Part shown: one piece after another, positions 29,031 through 31,535 of the stretch
Position numbering within the stretch: the first letter of the stretch is position 1
Layout of the letters: each line of letters begins with the position of its first letter
Notes under the pieces: generated by a model
Told to the model about the DNA's origin: nothing
What the model saw: only the letters and a program-made list of their open reading frames with translations
Database searches by the model: none
From: Streptococcus anginosus subsp. whileyi MAS624
GTDB taxonomy: Bacteria; Bacillota; Bacilli; Lactobacillales; Streptococcaceae
NCBI RefSeq assembly: GCF_000478925.1
Contig: NZ_AP013072.1
Location: 536,501 to 600,500 of the forward strand
Reading direction: 5' to 3'
DNA: 64,000 bases
Translations under genes and position numbers: made by a program

Positions 29031-29151
29031 AAGAAAGGATTTGAACCCGAACGAAATGCTCGGAAAATAGATAAACCGCCTGGCATTCATCGAATGTTTC
29101 GTTGGTTCCCTAATTTTCAGTCGCATTGTCGGCGTTCTTGGTATCATTATT
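29031..29151 (+). promoter_or_regulatory. Structured translational leader of dnaK
   Basis: An SD-like AAGAAAGGA (29031-29039) lies 112 bases before the dnaK ATG, and nothing resembling a Shine-Dalgarno precedes the ATG itself. The intervening RNA forms one long nested hairpin: GAAC/GTTC (29043-29046, 29134-29137), CCG/CGG (29047-29049, 29130-29132), AATGC/GCATT (29055-29059, 29123-29127), GAAAAT/ATTTTC (29063-29068, 29113-29118), AACC/GGTT (29074-29077, 29104-29107) and CATTC/GAATG (29084-29088, 29092-29096). It is homologous to the dnaJ leader at 31418. Confidence 0.65.
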
Positions 29152-30984
29152 ATGTCTAAAATTATCGGTATTGACTTAGGTACAACAAACTCAGCAGTTG
29201 CAGTTCTTGAAGGAACTGAAAGCAAAATTATCGCAAATCCAGAAGGAAATCGCACAACTCCGTCTGTCGTATCATTTAAAAATGGTGAAATCATCGTTGG
29301 TGATGCTGCAAAACGTCAAGCAGTGACAAACCCAGATACAGTGATTTCTATCAAATCAAAAATGGGAACTTCTGAAAAAGTTTCTGCTAACGGAAAAGAG
29401 TACACTCCACAAGAAATTTCAGCCATGATTCTGCAATACTTGAAAGGCTATGCTGAAGATTACCTTGGTGAAAAAGTAACCAAAGCAGTTATCACAGTTC
29501 CTGCTTACTTCAACGATGCGCAACGTCAAGCAACCAAAGACGCTGGTAAAATCGCTGGTCTTGAAGTAGAACGGATTGTCAACGAACCAACAGCAGCGGC
29601 CCTTGCTTATGGTTTGGACAAGACAGATAAAGAAGAAAAAATCTTGGTATTTGACCTTGGTGGTGGTACATTTGACGTGTCAATCCTTGAATTAGGCGAC
29701 GGTGTCTTTGATGTATTAGCAACTGCAGGGGACAACAAACTCGGTGGTGACGACTTTGACCAAAAGATTATCGACCACTTGGTAGCTGAGTTCAAGAAAG
29801 AAAATGGTATTGACTTGTCAACTGACAAGATGGCTCTTCAACGTTTGAAAGATGCAGCTGAAAAAGCTAAGAAAGACCTTTCTGGTGTAACGTCTACTCA
29901 AATCAGCTTGCCATTCATCACTGCGGGAGAAGCTGGACCTCTCCACTTAGAAATGACCTTGACACGTGCGAAATTTGATGACTTGACTCGTGAGCTTGTG
30001 GATCGCACAAAAGAACCTGTTCGTCGTGCATTGTCTGACGCTGGTCTTAGCTTGTCAGAAATTGATGAAGTTATTCTTGTTGGTGGTTCAACACGTATCC
30101 CAGCCGTTGTGGAAGCAGTAAAAGCTGAAACTGGTAAAGAACCAAACAAATCTGTAAACCCTGACGAAGTGGTTGCTATGGGTGCTGCTATCCAAGGTGG
30201 TGTGATTACTGGTGATGTTAAAGACGTTGTCCTTTTGGACGTAACACCGTTGTCACTTGGTATCGAAACTATGGGTGGTGTATTTACAAAACTTATTGAC
30301 CGCAACACAACGATTCCAACATCTAAATCACAAGTGTTCTCAACTGCTGCTGATAACCAACCAGCTGTGGATATCCATGTTCTTCAAGGTGAACGCCCAA
30401 TGGCAGCAGATAACAAGACACTTGGACGTTTCCAATTGACAGACATTCCTGCTGCACCTCGTGGTATCCCTCAAATTGAAGTAACATTTGATATTGACAA
30501 AAATGGTATCGTGTCTGTTAAGGCTAAAGACCTTGGTACGCAAAAAGAACAACATATCGTTATCCAATCGAACTCAGGTTTGACAGATGAAGAAATTGAC
30601 CGCATGATGAAAGATGCAGAAGCAAACGCCGAAGCAGATAAAAAACGTAAAGAAGAAGTAGATCTTCGTAACGAAGTGGATCAAGCTATCTTTGCAACTG
30701 AAAAGACTATCAAAGAAACAGAAGGCAAAGGCTTTGATGCAGAACGTGACGCTGCTCAAGCTGCTCTTGATGAATTGAAAAAAGCCCAAGAAAACAACAA
30801 CTTGGATGACATGAAATCAAAACTTGAAACACTCAATGAAAAAGCGCAAGCTCTCGCTGTGAAACTTTACGAACAAGCGGCTGCAGCCCAACAAGCTCAA
30901 GCAGGAGCAGAAGGAACAAGCCAAGCAAATACAGGCGACAACAAAGGCGACGATGTCGTAGACGGTGAGTTTACGGAGAAGTAA
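29152..30984 (+). CDS. dnaK: Molecular chaperone DnaK (Hsp70)
   Basis: A 610-residue ATP-dependent chaperone. Nucleotide-binding domain motifs are [13 protein letters not shown] (phosphate 1), [10 protein letters not shown] (phosphate 2) and [10 protein letters not shown]; a substrate-binding domain and an Ala/Gln-rich C-terminal tail ending in [11 protein letters not shown] follow. The ATG is unambiguous from homology but lacks a nearby Shine-Dalgarno; a folded leader lies upstream. Works with GrpE and DnaJ encoded on either side. Confidence 0.98.
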
Positions 30985-30986
30985 TT

Positions 30987-31349
30987 ATGACTGAAAAAAT
31001 CATTTTATCAGGTAGAACTGAACAAGAATTATATAAAGAATTTTGTAATTTAGCATGCAATGATTTAGAAGGTGCAAAATCTAAAATACAACAATTTTCT
31101 GATGATGAATTACGTATATATCAAGAAATAATCTTATCTGTAAGTGAATCAGCTAATGATTTGGAAACTAAACAGCTACCATTTTTATTGGCTCTTATGA
31201 CCATTATAAATGTAATTCCAAACAATGTAGTGAAAGTGATACTTATGTTTCTTGTAGTAGGTATATGGGTAAAATTTCTTAAAACAACCATTTATAGTGG
31301 TACAAGAATTAAAATAAAAAGGCTTCTTCGCTTTTTAAAAGATCTATAA
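30987..31349 (+). CDS. Small hypothetical membrane protein between dnaK and dnaJ
   Basis: A 120-residue protein starting two bases after the dnaK stop codon, with GGAG upstream. The N-terminal 60 residues are acidic and predicted helical (DDELRIYQEIILSVSES). One or two hydrophobic helices follow (LPFLLALMTIINVIP and VVKVILMFLVVGIWVKFL, about 65-97), then a basic tail (RIKIKRLLRFLKDL). I do not recognise a family. A hypothetical gene also sits in this position in pneumococcus. Cotranscription with dnaK suggests heat induction and perhaps a membrane-linked role, but this is inference. Confidence 0.7.
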   Translation: MTEKIILSGRTEQELYKEFCNLACNDLEGAKSKIQQFSDDELRIYQEIILSVSESANDLETKQLPFLLALMTIINVIPNNVVKVILMFLVVGIWVKFLKTTIYSGTRIKIKRLLRFLKDL

Positions 31350-31359
31350 TTTCAGAATG

Positions 31360-31387
31360 CAGAGGTTGCCTCCCAACCTCTGTTTTT
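31360..31387 (+). terminator. Terminator of the hrcA-dnaK operon
   Basis: CAGAGGTTG (31360-31368) pairs perfectly with CAACCTCTG (31374-31382), followed by TTTTT. It separates dnaK from dnaJ transcriptionally. Confidence 0.92.
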
Positions 31388-31417
31388 CGGTAAGATGAGT
31401 TACATCTATAATTTTAC

Positions 31418-31535
31418 AAGAAAGGAACTGAACCCGCCCTAAATGCTAGGTGAAAAAGATAAATTCTCTTGTGAGCGTCGCTCACGGCAAGAATTTCCTA
31501 TTTTCACTGTGCATTTTACGGGCTTGGTATCTTAT
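31418..31535 (+). promoter_or_regulatory. Structured translational leader of dnaJ, homologous to the dnaK leader
   Basis: AAGAAAGGA (31418-31426) is 109 bases before the dnaJ ATG at 31536. Between them the RNA folds as CCCG/CGGG (31433-31436, 31519-31522), AAATGC/GCATTT (31441-31446, 31511-31516), GTGAAAA/TTTTCAC (31450-31456, 31501-31507), AAATTCT/AGAATTT (31461-31467, 31490-31496) and GTGAGC/GCTCAC (31471-31476, 31480-31485). Shared with the dnaK leader are TGAACCCG, AAATGCT, AGATAAA and TTGGTATC, while inner stem sequences differ but remain paired. The -10 for dnaJ is not clear. Confidence 0.65.

Follow-up and report, generated by a model that had tools for sequence, protein, structure and literature searches.

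How do ribosomes begin translation of dnaK and dnaJ in Streptococcus anginosus subsp. whileyi MAS624, where the Shine-Dalgarno (SD) motif preceding each gene lies about 110 nt upstream of the ATG and a hairpin occupies the interval? The question is raised by a 64,000 nt stretch of this genome (the window), which contains the genes in the order hrcA, grpE, dnaK, a small open reading frame (ORF) and dnaJ, and whose preliminary description interpreted the twin leaders as a coordinated translational switch for Hsp70 and Hsp40, perhaps a thermosensor. The separation of SD from AUG by a hairpin is a genuine and recurrent arrangement. The two hairpins are copies of a repeated, probably mobile DNA hairpin of ~107 nt that is widespread in Streptococcus, and it is more likely that they are tolerated or co-opted insertions than a heat-shock switch; the earlier interpretation as a whole is partly supported. 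We consider it reasonably probable that hairpin repeats resembling miniature inverted-repeat transposable elements (MITEs) have split these ribosome-binding sites, with initiation proceeding across the fold.

Structured leaders of dnaK and dnaJ

The sequence features described for the two leaders are present. Neither gene has an SD between its hairpin and its ATG, and both carry AAGAAAGGA at the left edge of the hairpin (Table 1). In addition, the motifs TGAACCCG, AAATGCT, AGATAAA and TTGGTATC follow one another in the same order in both leaders, and exact searches of the 2.12 Mb genome with the leader patterns matched these two leaders only. The proposed nested hairpin is common to both: the dnaJ hairpin is far more stable than its shuffles (z = -5.81; 0 of 200 shuffles equally stable), whereas the dnaK hairpin alone is not exceptional (z = -0.14 with flanks and -1.28 without). 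When five dnaK copies from other species were folded, four had z scores from -2.7 to -3.2 and one (L076) had a z score of -0.93. As claimed, folding shortens the path from SD to AUG, but this property is not distinctive, since shuffles of the same segments average 15.8 (dnaJ) and 13.8 (dnaK) unpaired bases, compared with 7 and 17, respectively, in the actual leaders.

A dispersed family of hairpins

A BLAST search with the dnaJ leader hit 135 of 147 Streptococcus genomes, in many cases more than once. A covariance model, R1, was built from 12 sequences (alignment A2, which includes the dnaK copy, so that the score of this copy is a training-set score); its searches returned 105 matches from 70 sources at E <= 0.1, most of them at dnaJ in named Streptococcus, and 108 matches at E <= 1e-6 in 74 sources, which were aligned as A3. 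A second covariance model built from A3 (R2; 150 candidates scored per genome) located copies in 23 of the 25 Streptococcus genomes searched, between 1 and 101 in each. The MAS624 genome has 12 copies at E <= 0.001, and four identical copies lie in its 16S-23S rRNA spacers, between tRNA-Ala and 23S rRNA.

Across the Lactobacillales, matches occur in 41 of 118 genomes and 12 of 42 genera, Streptococcus contributing 16 of the 41. The relatives outside Streptococcus score lower, have mainly the AGATAAA/TTTCCTA core in common and form some head-to-tail arrays; among the 18 dnaJ loci examined outside Streptococcus, none has a match at E < 0.1 (one at 0.33). Weaker relatives in other Lactobacillales genomes (L272-L300) carry this core, have different ends and leave a few bases between arrayed copies. 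In a phage collection, the dnaJ leader had no match; in a plasmid collection, it matched 14 records, of which 13 are 22-nt matches in Campylobacter and one is a Streptococcus record with a purE leader that R1 did not score. A longer purE leader from L005 (S. agalactiae CP147646.1, ~2501-2725), also not scored by R1, has the same ends by eye (AGAAAGGAACTGAACACGGGAC ... CTTTGTATCTTA ATATT ATG).

Covariation and the level of pairing

The preliminary description guessed at covariation from two sequences, and large samples confirm it. In A3 (108 copies), 93.0% of the cells are paired, 31 of 35 pairs change on both sides, and the covariation is 0.617, versus 0.18 after shuffling and no more than 0.124 after sliding. 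Because A3 was fitted to a model, 31 leader copies were aligned with MAFFT and folded on their own as a structure-free check, in which 18 of 23 predicted pairs have changes on both sides.

Paired covariation alone is no proof of RNA function. One alternative is that the element is a domesticated regulatory RNA, in which protein- or ligand-binding leaders would control the translation of a small regulon, the left strand having two exclusive pairings, one with the gap that follows the SD and the other with the element's own right end. We regard this explanation as unlikely. The AGATAAA/TTTCCTA internal loop of the element is very conserved, which speaks for it; however, G-U pairs are not preferred over A-C mismatches. 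Among 3167 cells of element copies, 53 are G-U and 40 are A-C, and even the leader copies before dnaJ, dnaK or parC show no significant preference (39 versus 25, p = 0.10). In tRNAs of the same genome, with mispairs counted in the same way, 16 of 232 are G-U, none are A-C and 2 are of other kinds, though this control is small (11 of 14 tRNAs parsed). Selection on RNA should favour G-U over A-C, yet near symmetry is seen, and the pairing has therefore probably been kept as DNA. The absent preference for G-U thus points to pairing at the DNA level; correction of one arm by the other is an alternative source of pairing, and likewise acts on DNA.

Copies between SD and start codon

A census of 134 copies in nine genomes, from which 16 of the 150 matches in 11 genomes (those of G017 and G027) were left out, gives the positions of the element relative to genes. 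A copy was classed as split when an SD lay upstream, the ATG fell between 3 nt short of and 4 nt beyond the right end of the model, and no SD intervened. By this rule, 45 of the 134 copies separate an SD from an AUG, while 15 have an SD after the element and none before, 15 lie at a predicted start without an SD and 59 are in other positions. The presence of an SD at all 45 split copies is definitional, as the class requires the motif. The distance from the left edge to an SD of the GAAAGGA kind is at most 14 nt for 18 of the 45 split copies and for 1 of the 89 others (Fisher p = 3e-9). An SD motif within 45 nt was found for 7 of the 59 copies in other positions and for 381 of 4573 random windows.

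Of the 15 copies at predicted starts without an SD, 14 are at GTG or TTG, and 13 of these were judged by eye to be spurious antisense or upstream starts; of the other two copies, one (G019, MEVRKKN) overlaps a site with an SD after the element, and one (L129, in the MAS624 genome) is a weak match with TTG. The right end GTATCTTA often lies against a gene boundary, either the start codon of a gene in the sense direction or the stop codon of one on the opposite strand. An opposite-strand stop codon is near the right end for 31 of the 74 non-start copies, and for 11 of 18 when each distinct site is counted once; next to dnaK the element provides a TAA stop (by eye). Head-to-tail pairs of copies also occur.

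The split copies precede dnaJ (9), deoD (9), parC (8), prmA (7), carB (5) and a methyltransferase-like gene (4), together with single cases at purE, pheT and dnaK. These genes were named by NCBIfam using one representative each; the truncated parC, carB and pheT fall below the whole-protein cut-off, and the methyltransferase-like protein reaches no NCBIfam cut-off. The sites are kept across species, with dnaJ and deoD split in all nine genomes, parC in eight and prmA in seven, which is a point in favour of a regulatory RNA. However, the genes belong to no common pathway and, within the nine-genome census, have no chaperone theme, and copies are also found inside rRNA spacers, beside stop codons and as head-to-tail pairs. 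Moreover, Rfam gave no match in the window at the gathering threshold and none on either leader at E <= 10; at the 11 loci of the MAS624 copies it matched rRNA and tRNA only, as did a further Rfam scan.

Heat-shock control

These positions do not support a coordinated switch for Hsp70 and Hsp40. The same element precedes deoD, parC, prmA, carB, purE, pheT and other genes and lies in four 16S-23S rRNA spacers, and an ordinary SD precedes dnaK at 50 of 59 Streptococcus loci. An RNA thermometer would explain why two adjacent heat-shock genes carry the element, and the predicted dnaJ fold does pair part of the SD with UCUU near the AUG. Nevertheless, the SD accessibility is predicted to be flat with temperature: from 20 to 48 °C, the mean unpaired probability of the SD rises only from 0.62 to 0.65 (dnaK) and from 0.34 to 0.40 (dnaJ), and between 30 and 42 °C the changes are from 0.63 to 0.64 and from 0.35 to 0.37, all by thermodynamic prediction only. 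On these grounds the thermosensor was rejected, and we hold it to be very improbable. Since hrcA carries two perfect CIRCE (controlling inverted repeat of chaperone expression) operators, as matched to the consensus, heat control of the hrcA-grpE-dnaK run can be explained by ordinary regulation of transcription.

Age and turnover of the dnaJ site

Of 62 dnaJ loci from named Streptococcus, all but L038, L040, L085 and L087 (58 loci) have the right-end motif at the ATG, and in 54 of them, as well as in the window, the model detects a copy whose end is no more than 6 nt from the ATG. The DnaJ protein of the window is 98% identical to that of S. anginosus strain J4206. The element itself varies independently of the gene. 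For pairs of dnaJ loci with 90-99% identity at fourfold sites (n = 22), element identity ranges from 63.7 to 100% (median 97.2), whereas pairs in the 20-49% bins reach element identities of 97-98%; the fourfold values are rough, as they come from only 90 codons and lack gap correction. Element identity is decoupled from dnaJ divergence. The arrangement at dnaJ is old and nearly genus-wide, with its element repeatedly replaced by other subtypes. Tandem copies are found at dnaJ in two species, with three in L068 and two in L094. Upstream of dnaJ in L057, L059, L046, L069, L075 and L036 there are repeated truncated left ends, several of them after their own AGAAAGGA, as though older elements had decayed while fresh ones arrived beside the ATG.

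The dnaJ leader could alternatively be translated as an N-terminal extension beginning at ATG 31443, as the frame in the window is open for the 31 codons back to this ATG. Across 63 dnaJ loci, however, the frame is not conserved: three (the window, L068 and L092) are open for 31 codons, none for 36, and the median is 12. Translation from the equivalent site in dnaK would hit a stop codon four codons on. A coding leader was accordingly rejected and is scarcely credible.

The dnaK site and a copied cassette

Splitting of the dnaK site is the less common condition. Among 59 Streptococcus loci, eight have the element's right end (six full copies, and two shorter ones in L082 and L093 without a model match), one is unclassified and the remainder have the ordinary SD noted above. 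In the window, a second SD-like motif, AAGAGG, lies upstream of AAGAAAGGA and, on inspection by eye, aligns with the ordinary SD that precedes dnaK in relatives without the element. The dnaK element of the window is 94-95% identical to the copies of S. suis HCJ31, S. suis 10581 and S. orisratti, compared with 64-66% identity at fourfold sites and 71% over the 60 nt upstream. Conservation so far above synonymous sites is evidence for a regulatory RNA; it suits selection on function as well as recent spread, and to that extent counts against the explanation favoured here. In 197 Streptococcus genomes (four candidates scored per genome), all eight matches of at least 83% identity are at dnaK, and the 30 best loci examined comprise 11 at dnaK, 8 at deoD, 3 at dnaJ, one each at alr, a pdhB-like gene and alaS, and five others.

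A 132-nt cassette before alr (L310, genome G131) and before dnaK of S. ovis (L081) is identical at 131 of 132 nt, extending from GAGGAAAATGAAAGGAA, 17 nt upstream of the element, through the element to the ATG, with unrelated flanks on either side; G131 also has a dnaK copy of the same subtype. To judge from this match, the SD, the hairpin and the start-codon edge seem to have moved together once, although the upstream 17 nt at alr form the open 3' end of an upstream frame and the match may partly be a coding coincidence, which weakens the case. At L310 1484-1615, the TGA stop of this upstream frame apparently comes from the element (by eye).

Proposed initiation across the insert

In the explanation that we favour, a family of ~107-nt imperfect palindromes is dispersed through Streptococcus genomes in the manner of a MITE, and copies lie exactly between SD and ATG in a recurrent set of genes, splitting their ribosome-binding sites. 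The sequences show the family, its dispersal, its covariation, its position between SD and ATG, the turnover of subtypes and one copied cassette; movement as DNA, the way in which it moves and translation starting across the hairpin are inferred. The SD retained at the element's left edge would keep the split genes translatable; the intervening segment would fold as RNA into one or two hairpins, the gap between SD and element being able to fold onto the element's left end, and the 30S subunit could then reach both SD and AUG with the folded insert between them. The presence of dispersed copies at unrelated genes agrees with the many copies of a MITE. The element ends, TTGAACACG and GTATCTTA, pair with covariation but are, by eye, imperfect inverted repeats. 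For the gap, there are 27 split copies that bear one (22 distinct), in which it pairs with the left end of the element over a mean stem of 5.7 nt, compared with 3.3 when the gaps are shuffled (none of 200 means exceeding 3.86) and 3.8 for non-split copies. Because the SD stands at the left edge and the gap pairs in this way, use of SD and AUG by the ribosome across the insert is suggested; the alternative pairing in gap-bearing leaders is also a point in favour of a regulatory RNA.

Several observations weigh against this explanation. The gap arms also pair with the left ends of other leaders (4.36), indicating that the gap helix is not strictly co-varying, and the number of unpaired bases between SD and AUG after folding (median 13 across the 45 leaders versus 15.3 in shuffles) does not discriminate. 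The 45 split copies represent nine distinct genes at recurring orthologous sites and not 45 independent events, and the tRNA control for DNA-level pairing is small. As for mobility, the element ends are only weakly inverted by eye, inspection of the flanks of the 134 copies by eye gave no consistent target-site duplication, and no transposase turned up, no search for a related transposase having been made.

A different explanation is that the ribosome never crosses the insert, either because it is removed or cut from the mRNA by an RNase III-like or splicing-like process, or because transcripts start downstream of the SD, leaving the gene with an mRNA that carries only the hairpin or is nearly leaderless. 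The edges of the insert coincide with the SD and the ATG, so that removal would give normal spacing, and a TATAAT read by eye just before the dnaJ SD could place the start site at or beyond the SD, though the promoter scan reported no site just before dnaJ. The available text on S. pneumoniae D39 describes 70 leaderless operons that are efficiently translated (PMC6212727), which also counts in favour of a late start. However, dnaK lies downstream of hrcA and grpE with its SD-like motif within that run, and if the SD never formed part of the mRNA, there would be no explanation for its being kept at the left edge. We consider an uncrossed insert quite improbable.

If initiation does proceed across the fold, several housekeeping genes of a large genus would be translated from start sites whose halves are ~110-140 nt apart, and gene finders and SD-based predictors would misread them. 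The element would then be a case of a repeat entering ribosome-binding sites without silencing conserved genes. Moreover, the same gene without an insert, with different inserts, or with two or three in tandem provides a natural series for measuring initiation across structure. A more specific proposal, possible but doubtful, is that the split ribosome-binding site is itself mobile. On this view the DNA hairpin would travel with an SD of its own on one side and reach the start codon on the other, and each insertion would swap a gene's translation start signal for a portable one; this would have happened repeatedly at dnaJ, deoD, parC, prmA, carB and dnaK, and the element may tune the translation of these genes.

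Relation to described repeats and leaders

Split ribosome-binding sites with a hairpin occur in single genes of phage T4, genes 25 and 38. In the available text on structured leaders, hairpins can be accommodated without unfolding and high translation is obtained from standby sites more than 100 nt upstream (PMC3936740). The E. coli thrS site resembles the leaders described here in having a hairpin within the ribosome-binding region that is accommodated without unfolding; it differs, according to the same source, in being a single gene with an upstream single-stranded region that binds the ribosome, whereas here a repeated element is found in many genes (PMC3936740).

Among repeats, R1 found no match in the pneumococcal locus L059 besides the dnaJ leader copy; a sequence downstream of dnaJ in this locus is presumably a BOX element, no BOX model having been searched. 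Palindromic DNA hairpins of the repetitive extragenic palindromic (REP) and IS200-IS605 types are moved as single strands. The element resembles them in its palindromic DNA hairpin, Watson-Crick pairing and head-to-tail copies, but no link to a Y1 transposase was found for it, none having been sought. The nearest described repeats are the BOX-type repeats of S. suis, which have the right size and genus: in the available text of Croucher et al. 2011 (PMC3049150), the BOX-type repeats of S. pneumoniae and S. suis (RepSU1) are, like the element, dispersed, strongly folding intergenic Streptococcus repeats, which can likewise supply stop codons and are thought to be parasitic and MITE-like. The shortest S. 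suis form, ~100 nt in two ~50-nt modules, agrees in size with the element; the likeness is one of size and genus, and the available text does not describe placement between SD and ATG (PMC3049150). Prokaryotic MITEs in general, as far as the available text goes, are also short, non-coding, multi-copy, strongly folding intergenic DNA, but the element has imperfectly inverted ends and, by eye, no consistent target duplication, and the SD-ATG placement is not described for MITEs there (PMC10969869). Searches of the open-licence literature gave no paper describing this element between SD and start codon, and among the papers listed by a full-text search with two conserved element strings was one unrelated Borrelia paper.

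Coordinates and neighbouring features

Table 1. Features of the dnaK-dnaJ region (window positions) and rRNA-spacer copies of the element (positions in the MAS624 genome).
Feature	Positions	Strand	Basis and remarks
Two perfect CIRCE operators	26953-26979, 27036-27062	+	Upstream of hrcA; 0 mismatches each
AAGAGG, likely original dnaK SD	29021-29026	+	Read from sequence; now far from the ATG
AAGAAAGGA SD-like motif	29031-29039	+	Immediately 5' of dnaK hairpin element; same GAAAGGA-element junction at dnaK in other genomes
dnaK hairpin element copy	29041-29148	+	R1, 85.9 bits, E 3.6e-18 (training-set score)
dnaK	29152-30984	+	NCBIfam NF001413.0, 967.9 bits; ATG at 29152
Terminator-like hairpin upstream of dnaJ	31359-31383	+	Consensus scan; regional number close to shuffled mean, weak alone
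TATAAT, possible -10 box for dnaJ	31407-31412	+	By eye; transcription might begin at or near the SD-like motif
AAGAAAGGA SD-like motif	31418-31426	+	Immediately 5' of dnaJ hairpin element
dnaJ hairpin element copy	31428-31534	+	R1, 125.3 bits, E 3.5e-28 (in R1 training set)
dnaJ	31536-32672	+	NCBIfam TIGR02349.1, 472.6 bits; ATG at 31536
rRNA-spacer element copies	102652-102771, 643991-644110, 1893522-1893641, 2114032-2114151		

The small ORF in the interval between dnaK and dnaJ (30987-31349, 120 aa) has no NCBIfam match. Between grpE and the dnaK leader, positions 28909-29011 resemble the Rfam family SSRC8_2 (Streptococcus sRNA 8) at a sub-threshold score of 48.2 bits, compared with a gathering score of 72.

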